Source: Eremomyces bilateralis CBS 781.70 (lineage: Eukaryota; Ascomycota; Dothideomycetes; Eremomycetales; Eremomycetaceae). From it: 49,552 nucleotides of DNA. Made by a program: the position numbers and the translations under genes. The stretch lies in assembly GCF_010015585.1 (NCBI RefSeq), contig NW_022985090.1, forward strand, positions 207,347 through 256,898. Direction: 5' to 3'. The notes beneath the pieces are model-generated. The model did not search any database. It worked only from the letters and a program-made list of their open reading frames with translations, and was not told the origin of the DNA. Positions 313 to 49,460 of the stretch are shown one piece after another. Numbering within the stretch: the first letter of the stretch is position 1; every line of letters starts with the position of its first letter.

Positions 313-1882
313 TTAAGCAAAGAAGTTATTATTTCCATCATTTTCAAGCACCTTTAGTAGGACTTTCTGGAATAAGTTAGCCTCCTTATCAACCTTCTCC
401 CTGGGACATCCTCTCCAGAGTTTATACAACGCATCTACCGCATTCTTCCGCTCTAAATTGCCTGATGGATTCCGTAGATCCTCAAACGGAAGCTTCAGCT
501 TCATCCAGTCCCATATACGCTCGACACGGTTAAGATCCGGGGATCTAGGGGGCCATTTAACGACGTTGATACCCTGCTCTTGTCGTTCCTGGATTGTCCA
601 CTTTCGTGCCTTTGTATGGGGCGAAGCATTGTCCTCAATAATCCAGACAGTCCTGCCTGTAACGCGCTGGATCGTTCTTGCGTACGGAAATAATAGCGGA
701 CGGAGTATCATCTCTCGATATCGAGCCCAATCGACCCCCCCTTTACCTTTATCGCGTTTAGCAAGCCCCTGTTTGAATTCCCATTCCGGACGACGCCGTG
801 CACGGCGTGTACCGTGTTCCTGATTTTCCCTATATATATAAAGTAAGTAGATAAGCAGATAATAGGGTAAGTAACGAAGATAAGCTCGGATTGAAAGAGA
901 CAGCTTGGGGAAGAATAGGAAAGACCTTAACGAGTACATGACGACTGCGACTTGGACCTTACCTCTGTATATTTACATTTAATTCCTGCAGATGACGGTA
1001 CTGGCGGGTCCCAGGACGCCGTACCTCGGCTCTGTCATGCTCCATCTCGTGGATCATGACCTGGTTCTCATCCGAGATCGTGCGATCGATGGTCTCTCGT
1101 TCCTCCTGTGTCTCCGCTTCCCACGCATGGCATGGTCCCGTGCCCTCTAAGTCAAATCCCCAGCATATTGCTCCCCAAAACATAATAGCTTGAAATACGT
1201 CTGGAGGGGATCGTGAGAAATCGAATGGATTAGCGCCTCGTGGGCGTGTAACCGCGAGGGGTTTCCGACTATTGTTTGTATTTACCAGCATCTCGTCTGT
1301 GAAGATAAAAATATCTTCATTTTCGAGCTTTGGTAGCGCCCAACTGGCAAGCCTTTTCCTGTCGTTTTTGTGCCAGGGGGTAAGCTCAAGCTTCCGTGGA
1401 GGCCGGCGTCGACGGAGAATAAACTCATCTTTAAGGATTCTATATGCTGTAGTTTTTGGCACTGGTATACCAAGGTTCTCGCTTACTTCGCGCGCGACTT
1501 GAGTCCAAGGCTTATCTTGTGCCTGTTCGTCCCGTGTCGCTGTATCGCGTAACGCGTCTTTGACAATGCCTGCCGTGGCCGGGCGCCCACGATGCTCCTC
1601 TTCTTGTGCGCAGGCATCGAGACTTCGCTGGAAATCGAGAAGCGATGGCTGCCAATTTAGAGGTAAATTTTCCCCTCCGCCAACGCGCAAGCACGCAAAG
1701 TCTTTGGCTCTTCCATACACACGTTGATAAGCGCTAGATACGCTCGTAGTTGGGATGCGGAGCTCGGTCGATATCTGGGGGAAAGTCTGGCCAAAGTGGC
1801 GGCATACAGCGATGGTGGCTAGCTGAGTAATCGATAAATTATGTCTCTGCGCGACTCGACGTGTCTGACGGATAGGAGGCAT
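313..1882 (-). mobile_element. Tc1/mariner-type (IS630 superfamily) transposase, one intron
   Basis: Exon 1 is 1882-963 and exon 2 is 829-313, with a 133 bp GT-AG intron (962-830) ending in a TATATA run; phases match (phase 2) and give 478 residues. The N-terminus has a helix-turn-helix (about residues 15-55) followed by a second DNA-binding segment. The DDE catalytic triad is visible: FTDEM (about residue 196), EDNASPHTK (about 371) and SPDLNRVERIW (about 409), with about 36 residues between the second D and the E. The transposase seems intact, which suggests recent activity. Element ends are not resolved: TCACGTG occurs at 218-224 and, inverted, at 2125-2131, but flanking TA target duplications do not match on both sides. 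An alternative reading without the intron would give two unrelated fragments, so I favour splicing. Confidence 0.85.
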
Positions 1883-2086
1883 CAGAAAATTTAAGTAAAT
1901 ATGGTGTAGGATAAATCACTAGATACTAGTAATATCAATAATGATTGAATGATTGTTTATTCCTATGCCCGTCAGGCCTCTCTGCGTGGCACATGTGGGG
2001 AATATCAATGGTGATGAAGCAATCTTGAGTTTCGATGGGGTTCGTCGAGCCCCTCTGCACGTGACACGTACAATATCAGGGTGCGC

Positions 2087-16843: not shown

Positions 16844-17475
16844 AGGGGTTTCGGATAGCTGCGGCAGATATACGGACCTTAATCATTGATGGAATGTTAG
16901 GACTACATGTATTATAGATAGACCAAATGAAGCGAGACGCTCACATATCTTACCGGTTTTCCTTGGAGGGGCCATGGACGCGAATATACCGGTAATGTAG
17001 GTCCAACGATCCATTGTTATATGTATGCCCATTCAACCGAAAGCCATTGGGCGGCTGATAGGATAAAAGCACCATACTCCGTATTAATAATGTAGTAGCC
17101 GTATGCAATATTACCTAACCCTTCCAACCTATCGATATCTCACCGCCGTTAAGCTCAGCTGTTGCTCTGGCCACCATGATGGAACACCTTTAATAATGCT
17201 ATTCCTGGTGTATCCCCTGTCCTTGTAATTGCACGACACCTATGACGGAATAGGAACTTTCTCCACCTCCTCTCCTCACCTGGTGATAAGTAATGTACTG
17301 AATACCGTCCGTTATTCAACTTTCTCCATCATTCTTCCCGATATAATTATTTGTCACCCCCCAGAGCGGCGCAAGCGGTCCAATTCTTGGGCCGTGAGAT
17401 CTATCATTTGGGTATACGCCGTAATAGAATCGTGTGCCCGCTACGGACCCTAATACCGACCCCAGACGTCACCAA
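16844..17475. other. Intergenic region between ATP12 and the Osh1-type gene
   Basis: 632 bp, AT-richer than the genes on either side. It includes one copy of the recurring TACTCCGTA 9-mer at 17075-17083. No coding frame, RNA gene or terminal repeat is recognised. The right part should be the promoter and 5' UTR of the downstream gene. Confidence 0.5.
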
Positions 17476-29698: not shown

Positions 29699-30158
29699 GG
29701 TTGGGGTATGGGGATCGATGGATGGGGGGTCGTGGATGCAGCCGCTGGGCTGGATATAGAATGGGTTGCTCAAGTTGTTGGTGGGAGGTTGTAGTGTGTG
29801 AAATGTTATGAGTTCAAAGTGAAACCCACATGGTTGTTGACATTGTTGATGTTGTTGACGTTGTTGGAGTGAGAGATATGGTGTGAGTTTGAAGGGGGTG
29901 GATTCCTCCCCCGCGAAATCTTTCCACTGCAGAGTTCTGCCGAAGATCAACCGAACAACCTCACCTCTCGTCTTTCATTGATGTCACTGCGTTGCACCCA
30001 TTAAACCTTCGTCGCATCAGTGTATATCAGTTCTTCAGTCCTTAACTGTACCAAAGGTCATTCAGGTTTGCATAGTTGATGCTGGCCTAAAAGCCAATGC
30101 GCTCCTCCTCCTTCAACTGAGCACCTGTACTGTGCTCCGCACGCGCGATACATACGCA
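29699..30158. promoter_or_regulatory. Divergent promoter region PRP18 / SAP18
   Basis: 460 bp between two divergently transcribed nuclear genes. It contains an imperfect GTTGTTGAC/GTTGTTGAT iteration at about 29833-29868, within likely PRP18 5' UTR. No other motif is claimed. Confidence 0.5.
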
Positions 30159-39165: not shown

Positions 39166-41029
39166 TTAACTCTTATCCTCCCTCCCTTTACCTCCCCTTG
39201 CCTCCGCCTCATTTGACTCCCCCACCTCCAAGTCCTCCCCCTCCGGCCCCCTCGCCGCCACCATCTCCAACTCATCATCCGAACTCATATCCAACGGCTC
39301 CTCCTTTCCCCCCACCTTCCCCACCACCTTATTCACCACCTCCTTGACCCCCTTCGCCGCCTCCCCCGTCTCCTTCCCTGCCACCTTTCTCACCCCCAAC
39401 CCCTGCTGTTCATCCTCCCCTTTCTCCTCCGCCCCCTTCTCCATCACCTTCTTCTCCGCCGCCCCACTGGGCACCCCTAGAACCTCCTCCGCCACCTCCT
39501 CATCCCGCGGTGGCCGGTCCGGCGACTCTTCCGGATGCGCGCCCCCCCGCCAATCGGCGGCGACGCTCCCGCGCACGGGCTCGTCGGTTCCGGGTTCGGT
39601 GACGACGGTGCCGGGATATGGGACGGCGCGCCAGACGATGGCGACGCGGTCAAGGGCGCGGGAGCCCTTGCGGCTGGAGCCCTTGATGCCGTCCATATCG
39701 TCCCAGTCGATTTCGAAGACGCCGTCGGTGAGCGGGCCGGCGGGTTTGGCTGCTTTGTGGGTAGCTGGTTTTGACTGTGTGCTCGGGGTCGAGGGTTCCG
39801 TCGGGCTCTGGAGTGGAGAGTCGGGGAGCTGCTTGGTTTCGGTATCGGAGAGGGGGGTGGAGAAGGGGTTTGTGCAGCGTTCGGGGCCGGAGCCTTCGAA
39901 GAAGCAGTTGAACCAGACGTGGGCGACGGAGGTGACGAGGGTGAGGGTGCTGGTGGAGGCGGGGTGGCGGGTGACGGCGAGGTTGACGTCGGAAGTAGGG
40001 AGGATGAGAGGTTCAGAGGGCCGGAATATTGCTGCGGCGCCGTCTTTGGTCGTATCGGTTGTGGGCGCGTTGGATGGTTGGGTTTTTAGTGAAGGGTCGG
40101 GGGACTTGATTTGTGGAAGGGAGGTGTTGGAAGTGGTCGTGTTATCTGTGGGCGCTCTGCCGTCGCTTATAGAAGCAGTCTCGGGGGTATCTTTCCCGTT
40201 TTTCTTGTTGCCGCTGATGAATTCGTATGCAAGGTCCGCGAAACTGGTTTTCTGGATTTCACCGGAGACAATTTCCCGTTCTTCCCGGGTGAAAGTGTGA
40301 AACGTCTTGACCACCTTCCCTTCATCAACGAACCCTCGTACAGATACCTTGACTCCATCTCTTAAACCCCAAACATGGACCTCCAAAACTTCTATTTGTC
40401 TTTCAATGTAGATCTTCCCGTGATTCGTCCATCGATCGACGTACGAAAGACACCTCAGCTGCGACGGAATCGAAACGCCTGCGCCGAATCCCGGCCGCAT
40501 TCTCCGCGCGGTGAATCGCTGCAGAGCATCGTCCAGAGTCCATCCTTCTTCTGCGATTAAATATGCGCAACTCGACGTGCCGCTTCGACCCTTGCCAGCC
40601 TTGCAATGAACGACGATCACTCGCTCTTCATCCTCGTGTAACCAATTGCGCATGCTCGCGACAATCCTCGGAATCAGCGCGAACGGTGGCGGATGGTGAT
40701 CGGGCCATGGGAAGTGCCATACGCGACCGTACACCTCGTCATCGGGGTAGCCTGTCCCTTCGGCGCGGAATTCCCATATTGCCCACTTGTCTTTGTGTTT
40801 GGAGTCGAGGAATTTGACAAGTTCGTCGAGTGGATTGCGGTAATATCGCTTTGGATATGTCCCGGAAGGACCTGACGTTGCGATGATGCGATCGGTCACA
40901 TAACAGAGATCGAGACCAGCTTCAGGGTGACGGGCGCGCGGACTAGCGACGATTTGGCGGAGAATTGATGCCTGTTGGGGGTTAGTGATACGATCCAACG
41001 GAAAGGGATGAAGTTGATGGTGATACCAT
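39166..41029 (-). CDS. PTEN/TEP1-type phosphoinositide 3-phosphatase
   Basis: Exon 1 is the bare ATG at 41029-41027, then a 55 bp intron (41026-40972) and exon 2 40971-39166; 602 residues. The spliced start MASILRQIVASPRARHPEAGLDLCYVTDRIIA is the conserved fungal TEP1 N-terminus, which reads MTAIIKEIVSRNK... in animal PTEN; without the splice no ATG lies in frame near it. The catalytic P-loop HCKAGKGRSG is at about 124-133 (PTEN HCKAGKGRTG), preceded by the WPD-like FPWPDHHPPP. A C2-like segment follows (IYIERQIEVLEVHVW...), then a long Ser/Thr/Glu-rich tail with acidic clusters. It should dephosphorylate PI(3,4,5)P3 or PI3P-type lipids at membranes. Confidence 0.93.
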
Positions 41030-41398
41030 AAATGTCTAGTACATCAATGTCTAATATTTTAATATATGCGACACATACCGCGACCTGCACATCATGTTAT
41101 TCCAGTGTGTTACTCCTGACAGGACGTCCATCGTCTGCTGAAGGCACGTGTTTTTGACTTTTGAGGCTCTGGTGATGACGTCGTTGGTGGATCCCTGCAA
41201 AAGCTTGTCTTCGCTCGTCTTCTGATCTCTCCTCTCTTTCATCGTCATCCACTTGATAAGGTAGTTGATACTGTATACAAGTATCTTCACATACCATTCA
41301 ATTTGTCATTTCATTCGCTTTCATTCAGAAACGGGGTAAAGCAAGCGCCTATAGCAAGGCTGTCCCACCAACAGTCCTCAACCAACACGATCACCAGA
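41030..41398. promoter_or_regulatory. Divergent promoter region TEP1 / OM14-like
   Basis: 369 bp between two divergent genes. Contains the uORF above and TC-rich stretches at about 41215-41250 and 41306-41335. No further motif is claimed. Confidence 0.4.
41036..41044 (-). promoter_or_regulatory. Two-codon uORF (ATG TAC TAG) before the TEP1 start
   Basis: A minimal upstream frame ends 6 nt before the TEP1 ATG. If it lies in the 5' UTR, ribosomes initiating on it would stop almost at once and could reinitiate only with difficulty so close by, so it would be expected to lower TEP1 translation. Whether the transcript begins upstream of it is not known from sequence. Confidence 0.4.
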
Positions 41399-42294
41399 AT
41401 GTCGTACGCAGACGCTGCTGCCAGTGGGCCGAAGCAGAGTCCAGATGAGGTGAGTTACGCGACTCTTACTTGAGATACTTATGCTGACTTATAGCCAGGC
41501 GTAAGTTCTAAACTCTCCTTATCGCGCGATGAACCTTTCCACTGTGCCTAGTTCGTCATGTCAATGGTGCAAACATTGTGGCATGATACACCCCTGGCAA
41601 ACAGCCTCGCCTCGTGTCACAAGACCTATTGCCCTCGTCCAAGGAGATAGTGTTAGCCATCAAGAAAATTGCGAAATGGCTATATCTATGAACATTCCGA
41701 GCGGCGAGACTGCACAAGCGTTATCCCAACATACCCATCCGCAAACACGGCTAACTCCTCACTATCCAGTCGTGCCCCCGCCGTCCCTGAAGTCGCCAAC
41801 ACCGAATCCAGCACTCAATCCCTCATCGACGTCGACAGCCCTCACATCTCCTCCGTCCCCTCCGACTTCGAATCCCAGTCCGTCAAGACCGACACCCAAG
41901 CCAAGCGCCTCGACCGCGAAGCTGAAGCAGACGAGCTACGCGCCGAGACCGCTGCCAAGCAGGCCAAAGAGAAGGCAAATGCGAAGGCAAAGGCGGCGAA
42001 GAGCAAGGCCGGCGGCGCAAGCAAGTGCGTGAGGGAGAACGCGGGAAATCCGGTCGTGCTTGGGAACTTCGTGGCGCTGGGCGCGTTGGGGACGTTGCTT
42101 GGCATCGGCGGGTATAGGAAATACGTCTCGGGAGAACTTTCGTGGAAGGTTATGGGGATCAGTGCCGGGGCCGTGGGGCTTTTCGCTACTGGGGACTATT
42201 TCTTGAGCAAGTACGTGACTATTTCCCAGTCGATGAAGGATGATGCTAATAACGTCGTAGATATCTTTTCAAGAAGTACCCGCCGAAGAAATAA
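41399..42294 (+). CDS. OM14-like mitochondrial outer-membrane protein, with a 2-nt exon
   Basis: Exons 41399-41449, 41499-41500 (two bases, GC), 41770-42210 and 42261-42294; introns of 49, 269 and 50 bp; 175 residues. The sum of the exons is divisible by three only with the two-base exon, which gives MSYADAAASGPKQSPDE-A-RAPAVPEV. Exon 3 encodes a conserved SLIDVDSPHISSVPSDF block, a long Ala/Lys/Glu helix (about 75-110), and two hydrophobic segments (LGNFVALGALGTLLGIGGY and VMGISAGAVGLFATGDYFL). Exon 4 adds YLFKKYPPKK. The layout resembles the fungal OM14 family, whose yeast member helps recruit ribosomes to the mitochondrial surface. Family is recalled from pattern, not searched. Confidence 0.8.
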
Positions 42295-42889
42295 GGGTGC
42301 TGATGTGGATGGGCCAGCTGTTTTGTTCTTTTGATGCAATGATTTATCTCTACTCATAAAGCCTTGCTTCGGTTCTGTTGAAGCAATGCGGTTGGCGTTT
42401 CAAGTAATATGCAATGTAACATTCTCCAACATCTCGCTCTGAACCAACATGCAAATCGCGACCTCTTCTTACCTAGATGCTCCGTGGTTGATATCTCCGT
42501 GACCTAGCCCTGAATCTACCCGCCCCCCAATGTTGTCTCCTTGGTCTTTATACTAGACGCTGCTTGCCCCAAGATGTGGAGACTGAATGATATCCAGAAC
42601 CAGTCGTAGGACATGTTTGCCCCAAGGTCGATTAAGACGGTGTTGTCTCGTATAGCCCCCTAGGCTATGGCATTCATGTGGTATCAGTGAATGAAATCAA
42701 AACAAACACCCGATAAGTTTACTCCCCCACCAACCCGCCACTCCTTGACAAGCGAAGAACTGGCATCGCTGACACTACATGCCATTGCTGGGTCATTTGA
42801 TGGACAACACTGACATCACCTGAAGTTATTCAGTTCGGACTTCGTACCATTTGTCAAAACTACCTTCATCTCACGCATCTACCATCCTA

Positions 42890-47360: not shown

Positions 47361-49395
47361 TCAGGCTGCTGCTGGCTTGCTCAGGCATAGCCTCACTGCC
47401 ATGCAGAGTACTAGCACCATCGGGGGGGGGATCTCTCTAAGCTCCTCTTTACCGTTAACTGATGTCCTGCTTGGTCCCAGTCTTTCCTCCTCTGCCTCTT
47501 GTTGCATAGCTGTAAAGCGATTCAGACACGCAATGGCTCTCGGGGGCTGAGAACCGAGCTTCTGCTTGTAGCCGTTGGATGCTCTCTGGTAGAGCTCGGA
47601 CGCCTCCTTATATTGCCCGCGCTTATGTAAAAGATAGGCAAGGCAGTAGACGGAAGTAAGTATATCAGGATGATCCATTCCAAGCTCCTTCTCATACCCT
47701 TCCAGCACTCGCCGGTTCCGCTTCTCCGCATCCGAGTACCCCCCCTGATCTTGTAGCATGCCCGCCAGGTTGTTCACGCTCGTCAGCGTAACTGGGTGAT
47801 GTACACTTAACTCCTTCTCCCTCCCTTCTAGCGCTCGCCGGTTCAGCTTCTCCGCCTCCGAGTACTTCCCCTGATCCCGCAGCACGCCCGCAAGGACATC
47901 AACACTTATTAGTGTCAACTGGTCTTCTTGTCCATATGCCCTTTCTCTAGTATTCAGCGCCCTTACTGCCATGCCGTGTGCTGTCTTATACCTCCCTATC
48001 ATCCACATATATCACGCAGAATTTATAAGAATCTGAGTCCAGTCTTTCAAGGACTCGTTAGTCACCGGCTTAGCGTCATATAACGATTTAGCGTGTGGAA
48101 GCAGTTGCTGGCACTTCGCCCAGTTCTTAAACCCGCCGGTGGGCAGCTCTCGTGCCATTAATTGTACGAATTGTTTCTTCCACCACTCGGCGTCGCTAAA
48201 CGACAATAGCCAGACTTGTGTGCAAAACTGCACCAGGGCGTGCATCTCACACATGTCAGTCTCGGCTGTCGCAGCAACAAGGGAGTAAGCTTGTAAGGTA
48301 TCAAAATCTTCGTCAAATTCATTATTAGCCTCGTCTTCGCACCCTGGTTTTGCCACTGTCCTACTGACTATCCTACTATGCCTGCGAAGTATCGACTCCG
48401 GAATACCTTGAGGGTTAAAGAAGCTCATAAGCGACAGCAAGTCTGCAGCAGACGGCATTTCTTCACGAATTCGCTCAAACGATATCTGCCACGTCGTTAC
48501 CACCGAGCTGGATGCACTATCGTCCCTACGGATATCGCCTATATCCAAATTTAGGAGATTTTCTCTCTTGTTGTTGTTTCTATGAAACTCGCCGAGGTAC
48601 TTAGGGATCGTCATTCGAGCTCGCCGGTTGATATATGCAGCGGCCTGGGTGATTGCAAGAGGGATGTAGTCGAGAGCACGCAGCAGATCAATTGCGTCGT
48701 CGGTCAACGCGTCCTGCAGCTTGTTCCGGAGGAGCTGTAGGCCTTGGGTCTCGTTCATTGCCCGTACTTCCTTGATATTCTTCTAGCCTCCTGATAGTCT
48801 GGCTGCTGCATCCTTGTTCCTAGAAGTGATCAGGGTCGATCCGTTCCGGCTTTGCGGGAGGTAAGCCGCCAGCGATGCCGGCGGGCTTCTCGACGGCTCG
48901 TCTTTCTTATCGTCTCGCGACGGGAAGAAGGTCTCGAGGTTATCGACGTTGTCCAGGATCATCGTCCATTGGCCGTTTGTCTCCTCGCACAGCCAGTTGC
49001 GGACCAGCCGTAAAATATCGGCCTTCGGATTCTCTCGCCCCGGAAACTCCAGCCTGTCTGCAATATCTCTATACGCTTCTTCGAACCGGGCCTTGGTGCT
49101 GGCGTGCAACCAGAATACGGACGTTTGCGGCGATGTATCGCGGATCTCGTGGCAGTATCGGATAGCTATTTGCGACTTTCTACCAGCTGTTAGCCTCCTA
49201 ACGGAATAAGCAGACGTTGGCATATGGTACCCTACGCCGCCAAGACCGACGAGCGCGGCGCGAGCGCCCAGTCTTGCGCACTTGTCGCAGATCCACGCTA
49301 GAATATCGGGCCGGTCGACGAAGTCGGAAGTCAGAGTCTGGGGCGAACGGGACGGCGGAGAAGGGGTTGCGTTGTCGGCTCGGTCCGTCTGTGCG
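47361..49395 (-). pseudogene. NB-ARC/TPR STAND (NLR-like) gene with two in-frame stops
   Basis: Minus-strand exon 49395-49231, intron 49230-49180 (51 bp), then one frame to 47361. The intron joins VGLGGVG to KSQIAIRY, making a P-loop (GLGGVGKSQ); TMILDNVDN is Walker B and GSTLITSRNKD the sensor region. A winged-helix/ARC segment follows (DYIPLAITQAAAYI), then three 42-residue TPRs (SEAEKLNRRALEGREKELSVHHP type). The reading frame is the same throughout but is cut by TAG at 48783-48785 and TGA at about 48014-48012. The 5' end (the effector domain) is missing: a candidate acceptor at 49396 leads into AT-rich DNA and a probable transposon end. In fungi such proteins take part in non-self recognition; this copy looks non-functional unless the stops are bypassed. 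Confidence 0.7.
47700..47960 (-). repeat. Tandem 126-bp TPR-coding repeats
   Basis: Successive TPR units share near-identical stretches, for example CGCCGGTTC.GCTTCTCCGC.TCCGAGTAC in two copies 126 bp apart on the plus strand. High identity between units is typical of STAND TPR or WD arrays, which gain and lose units by recombination. Confidence 0.6.
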
Positions 49396-49460
49396 CTGGT
49401 TTAAGCACAACTAGATATTATTAGATAACTAATTACAGTCGATAATTATTTGATGGTCAT

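Follow-up and report, generated by a model that had tools for sequence, protein, structure and literature searches.

A predicted two-nucleotide exon in an OM14-like gene of Eremomyces bilateralis

Introduction

A gene at positions 41399 to 42294 (+) of a 49,552-nucleotide stretch of DNA from Eremomyces bilateralis CBS 781.70, referred to here as the window, raises the question of how its first two clear coding blocks are joined. The first block ends in phase 0 and the second is entered in phase 2, so two bases (modulo 3) have to come from between them unless the borders differ. Could the missing bases be an exon of exactly two nucleotides? Exons of one or two bases probe the lower limit of spliceosome definition. 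According to PMC12940212, automatic gene models frequently overlook such exons, and the proteins are then assigned wrong N-termini or frames.

The window has fungal-type genes with short GT-AG introns and CTRAY branch sites, including genes for an oxysterol-binding protein, a Sac-type inositol phosphatase, an ELO fatty-acid elongase, an amidohydrolase, and a GH43 glycosidase. At 313-1915 (-) there are two neighbouring reading frames that resemble, by eye, a broken DDE (Tc1/mariner-like) transposase; a Pfam search at E 0.001 gave nothing for the second of them, at 959-1915 (-). Three frames follow in succession at 47361-49400 (-) and, again by eye, resemble a single NLR-like gene (NB-ARC/TPR) interrupted by stops or introns.

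Gene structure and product

The proposed join, 41399-41449 + 41499-41500 + 41770-42210 + 42261-42294 (+), yields an open frame of 175 residues and has the following features.

41399 to 41449, plus strand: exon 1, 51 nt coding, MSYADAAASGPKQSPDE, with the ATG at 41399-41401 and the last codon GAG at 41447-41449, phase 0
41450 to 41498, plus strand: intron 1, 49 nt, GTGAGT...CTGAC-(11)-CCAG, with the AG at 41497-41498
41484 to 41488, plus strand: CTGAC in intron 1, resembling a branch point, with the A 11 nt ahead of the intron's final base
41490 to 41494, plus strand: TATAG, an acceptor that is probably passed over, 7 nt away from the branch A and in the wrong phase
41499 to 41500, plus strand: exon 2, the two nucleotides GC, predicted to be bases 1 and 2 of the Ala-18 codon GC/T
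41501 to 41769, plus strand: intron 2, 269 nt, GTAAGT (41501-41506)...CTAAC-(15)-CCAG, with the AG at 41768-41769
41770 to 42210, plus strand: exon 3, entered in phase 2 with the T of the Ala codon, followed by RAPAVPEV...
42211 to 42260, plus strand: intron 3, 50 nt, GTACGT...CTAAT-(11)-GTAG
42261 to 42294, plus strand: exon 4, terminus ...KYPPKK, with the last base of the stop codon at 42294

The product of splicing through GC is predicted to be SYADAAASGPKQSPDE linked via Ala to RAP. The coding signal of exon 1 is weak, with a log-odds of +1.7 in the used frame and -5.2 and -12.4 in the remaining two, and that of exon 3 is +21.4 over 41771-42210. When exon 3 is read in phase 0 from 41770, it stops after SCPRRP. 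Re-reading of the sequence confirmed several points of an earlier note on this DNA: exon 1 ends in phase 0 with GAG at 41449, T-CGT-GCC runs from 41770, and AG (41497-41498), GC (41499-41500), and GTAAGT (from 41501) lie precisely where it had put them, with the branch-like CTGAC that it had described before the micro-exon located at 41484-41488. It was also right that the AG at 41473-41474 would leave an intron of 25 nt, and that the TATAG acceptor ending at 41494 gives the wrong phase.

The OM14-like label proposed earlier for the gene was partly borne out. Residues 111-171 match positions 5-67 of the 70-position Pfam profile OM14_C at E 1.7e-4, but the score of 22.5 bits is below the curated cut-off of 26.1, which leaves the match suggestive. 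Hydropathy over 19-residue segments has two peaks, 1.91 for the segment that begins at residue 113 and 1.34 for the one that begins at residue 145, and these two hydrophobic stretches coincide with the matched region. C-terminal hydrophobic segments are a feature of OM14. The sequence thus suggests a probable mitochondrial outer-membrane protein, for which the OM14 label is reasonable but not established. Scans of viral and prokaryotic contig collections with the protein gave pattern matches of which 0 of 47 and 0 of 506, respectively, were confirmed as homologues; given the nature of these collections, the result does not indicate that fungi lack homologues. The PDB gave no match up to E 0.1. 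Literature searches returned no paper combining OM14, intron, and Aspergillus and nothing relevant to the peptide strings, and the excerpts retrieved for OM14, outer membrane, intron, and yeast contained nothing about an OM14 intron. We presume that Aspergillus relatives have a similar start to exon 1 and an Ala at the same place, a resemblance given no weight here.

On the opposite strand, a divergent upstream neighbour at 39166-41092 (-) is a dual-specificity/tyrosine phosphatase gene (PF00782, E 4.1e-9). Its predicted start and that of the OM14-like gene are about 300 bp apart, and the two genes may have a common promoter region.

Comparison of splicing routes

We enumerated the products of one or two splicing steps from the ATG at 41399: each possible GT-AG intron of 40-400 nt from this ATG to 41850 was excised in turn, and each possible second excision was then applied to the product, with nested routes included. 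The 253 single and 22,494 two-step routes gave 331 distinct in-frame products. Scored with generic fungal splice weights, an intron cost, and a coding score, where both weights and cost were the analyst's choice, the GC exon was top with 11.43 versus 6.00 for the runner-up. The best nested routes reached 5.24 (rank 5) and 5.08 (rank 6). Extension of exon 3 upstream to the acceptors at 41656 or 41701 was rejected, as the branch sites are weak and the extensions have coding log-odds of -1.6 and -0.5.

The splice matrices were then re-estimated from other introns in the window. A rough gene model called 26 introns, of which 12 served as references after the two introns under test had been excluded and 12 less sure ones dropped; one reference is intron 3 of the OM14-like gene itself. 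With a branch distance of 9-15 nt left free of penalty, again the analyst's choice, the GC exon was first in all six settings (three intron costs, each with the length penalty on or off), with a lead of 3.2-3.4 nats. It also came top of 1,882 valid routes when 19,482 ordered pairs were screened with a hand-made simple consensus score. The earlier reading of a two-nucleotide exon is hence supported by all three kinds of scoring. Its wording that this was the only legal GT-AG solution was too strong, since 11 of the 253 one-intron routes and 1,830 of the 22,494 two-step routes stay in frame. One counterexample, at rank 9, removes introns 41450-41551 and 41560-41769 and keeps an 8-nt exon; further in-frame routes beyond the earlier reading are nested (stwintron-like) or use the donor GTACGC at 41404 inside exon 1. 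The in-frame alternatives have poorer sites and lower scores, and the GC exon is clearly the best solution, though not the sole one.

The whole-window gene model that had called the 26 introns, which permitted very short exons, three-intron routes, and alternative starts, returned the identical structure with the ATG at 41399. The same model placed other tiny exons, of 2 nt at 17099-17100, 1 nt at 30021, and, on the minus strand, 0 nt between 6283 and 6282. These seem to serve for bridging genes, and the model's agreement on the GC exon is therefore weak if taken alone. The middle-site scores at these three places are 5.0, 3.6, and 6.2, respectively, versus 10.0 at the GC exon.

Fit to introns of the window and chance expectation

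The 12 reference introns were picked for their canonical looks and so bias the comparison toward canonical solutions. They range in length from 46 to 92 nt, and their branch A precedes the intron end by 9-13 nt. Intron 1 (49 nt, branch distance 11 nt) agrees with them in size and in its donor and branch, as well as in the spacing from branch to acceptor. TATAG, at 7 nt from the branch A, is outside their range of 9-13 nt and may be bypassed for this reason. Intron 2, with its 269 nt, is about three to six times as long as the references (46-92 nt) and has a branch distance of 15; its donor and branch reach the maximum scores possible under the generic model. Its length, like the weak coding signal of exon 1, counts against the proposed structure. 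A structured or non-coding RNA within intron 2 was considered and rejected: at E values of up to 10, Rfam gave three matches in 41300-42400, all of them far under cut-off and none within the intron, and folding was unremarkable (z -0.28, with 75 of 200 shuffles folding equally well or better). Among repeats of at least 12 nt in 41300-42400 there is no direct repeat and a single inverted pair, which is located in exon 3.

Good splice sites lie on either side of the GC exon, a 3' site with branch and YAG before it and the 5' site GTAAGT after it. We estimated how often such a block arises by chance by shuffling 41456-41745 with dinucleotides preserved and the outer sites fixed, and counting right-phase exons without a stop. 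A 2-nt exon whose middle sites equal the real ones in quality appeared in 2 of 20,000 shuffles, and an exon of up to 11 nt reaching the real score in 3 of 20,000. With the limit raised to 60 nt, 3 of 8,000 shuffles reached this score, and with a limit of 300 nt, 2 of 4,000 did. Among the 3,960 places on both strands of the window where AG and GT are separated by 0 to 11 nt, the GC site ranks first (10.0). The second-ranked place is the adjacent TATAG acceptor with the same donor (8.5), and the best elsewhere scores 7.6. When only the 340 places of exactly 2 nt are considered, the GC site is again the best and the next one has 5.2.

Alternative explanations

Three readings dispense with the two-nucleotide exon. 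If exon 1 ended at 41403, with the donor GTACGC at 41404, the protein would begin MS-QA-RAP if a 6-nt exon CCAGGC remained between introns 41404-41494 and 41501-41769, and MS-RAP if all of 41404-41769 were removed, leaving 159 residues. Both forms keep the frame, MS-RAP stays open, and the coding signal of exon 1 is weak; the MS-QA form is also the runner-up under the re-estimated matrices, 3.2-3.4 nats behind, and third (5.96) under the generic model. However, GTACGC scores 0.68 versus 3.40 for GTGAGT, and the early donor drops MSYADAAASGPKQSPDE, which is coding-positive in the right frame only. The MS-QA form would in addition need TATAG, whose 7 nt from the branch A compare with 9-13 nt in the 12 other introns. 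We consider exon 1 ending at 41403 very unlikely.

A stwintron of type [D1,2] would lose its internal intron, 41450-41551, before the rest, creating the donor G/TTCGT for an external intron that extends to 41769, and would give ...SPDD-RAP with no micro-exon. This route is in frame (rank 11 of 331, score 2.55), two more nested routes lead to MS-RAP (rank 5, 5.24) and to an exon 3 extended to 41657 (rank 6, 5.08), and stwintrons are reported in Hypoxylaceae, Xylariaceae, and Aspergillus. Yet the [D1,2] route lies 8.9 log units under the GC exon, its internal intron has the poor branch TGAAC, and the near-perfect block CTGAC-CCAG-GC-GTAAGT is left without explanation. Such a stwintron is extremely improbable. 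Only slightly less so is a single 320-nt intron, 41450-41769, combined with an assembly error or a true frameshift mutation close to the junction, in which AG-GC-GTAAGT would be coincidental. The outer sites of this intron, GTGAGT and CTAAC-CCAG, are good and assembly indels do occur, but a comparable middle block arose in just 2 of 20,000 shuffles, and the remaining reading frame is intact up to the stop.

Discussion

Our analysis makes a strong prediction: the OM14-like gene very probably has four coding exons, one of them a genuine 2-nt exon, GC, joined in two successive splicing steps. Ordinary GT-AG introns of 49 and 269 nt would flank GC, which would provide positions one and two of an Ala codon, with the T of exon 3 as its third base, and so restore the frame. 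As two bases can hardly carry a 3'-site complex and U1 snRNP together, the two introns would be removed successively, most likely by intron definition. The 49-nt intron, being short and of usual size, is the likelier to go first, which would join GC to exon 1; GTAAGT would then pair with the distant CTAAC...CCAG. The sequence analysis shows the anatomy of the locus, the need for two bases to keep the frame, the quality of the sites, and their rank among the alternatives; splicing in vivo through GC, the order of the steps, and constitutive inclusion are what we infer from this arrangement.

Six alternative isoforms were translated. Skipping of GC leaves 23 residues, retention of intron 2 leaves 18, retention of intron 1, alone or together with intron 2, leaves 24, and use of the TATAG acceptor leaves 25; only the MS-RAP isoform from the 41404 donor is open (159 residues). 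Provided that exon 1 is right, exact inclusion of GC is therefore required, since skipping, retention, and TATAG use truncate the protein to 18-25 residues. A bolder and unlikely extension is that the two introns form an obligatory two-step complex intron, intermediate between an ordinary exon and a stwintron, with inclusion of GC regulated so that splicing sets the amount of an outer-membrane protein. Under such a regulated check, skipped or half-spliced RNA would carry a frame of 18-25 residues and probably enter mRNA decay. If confirmed, the GC exon would be a 2-nt exon within an ordinary fungal gene that is not a P450, and the compact locus would suit the study of intron-removal order and of transitions from exon to stwintron. 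A literature search for 2-nt exons, partial in coverage, gave no paper on fungi as judged by title.

Several known systems resemble this locus in part. CYP621A of Fusarium has a single-nucleotide exon, G, which, according to PMC12940212 (2026), was detected by a phase mismatch, is present in the Fusarium orthologues aligned by its authors, and is supported by 18 SRA reads shown there. Both cases are from filamentous ascomycetes and have an internal ultra-small exon between GT-AG introns that restores the frame within one codon. The genes are unrelated and the exon is 2 nt (GC) here versus 1 nt (G) there; moreover, the CYP621A exon is read-supported and seen in orthologues, whereas the GC exon is predicted from the window sequence. 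The Fusarium paper also refers to exons of 2-5 bp in Arabidopsis, Drosophila, and humans. APC11 of Arabidopsis has a constitutive single-nucleotide exon, for which the authors of PMC4674806 (2015) propose intron definition and recursive successive splicing; the same paper cites a potato invertase case in which the second intron is removed first. Like the APC11 exon, GC is too short for exon definition; unlike it, GC is predicted, while the 1-nt plant exon was experimentally tested.

Stwintrons (PMC6616335) share with this locus two introns in one place and two consecutive reactions. In a stwintron, the donor, branch, or acceptor of the external intron is interrupted by the internal intron, whereas at this locus nothing interrupts the donor of intron 2 and two bases stay in the predicted mRNA. 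Unlike a stwintron, the top-scoring structure thus consists of two whole introns that do not overlap, and GC stands between the AG and the GT that would directly adjoin in a zero-nucleotide recursive splice site. The coding micro-exon of Xlr2 in Trichoderma virens, another filamentous fungus, differs in being 20 nt long and included depending on glucose (PMC11121469). Considering these systems together, we predict that the GC exon belongs to a class of extreme micro-exons that is rare but has been described before.
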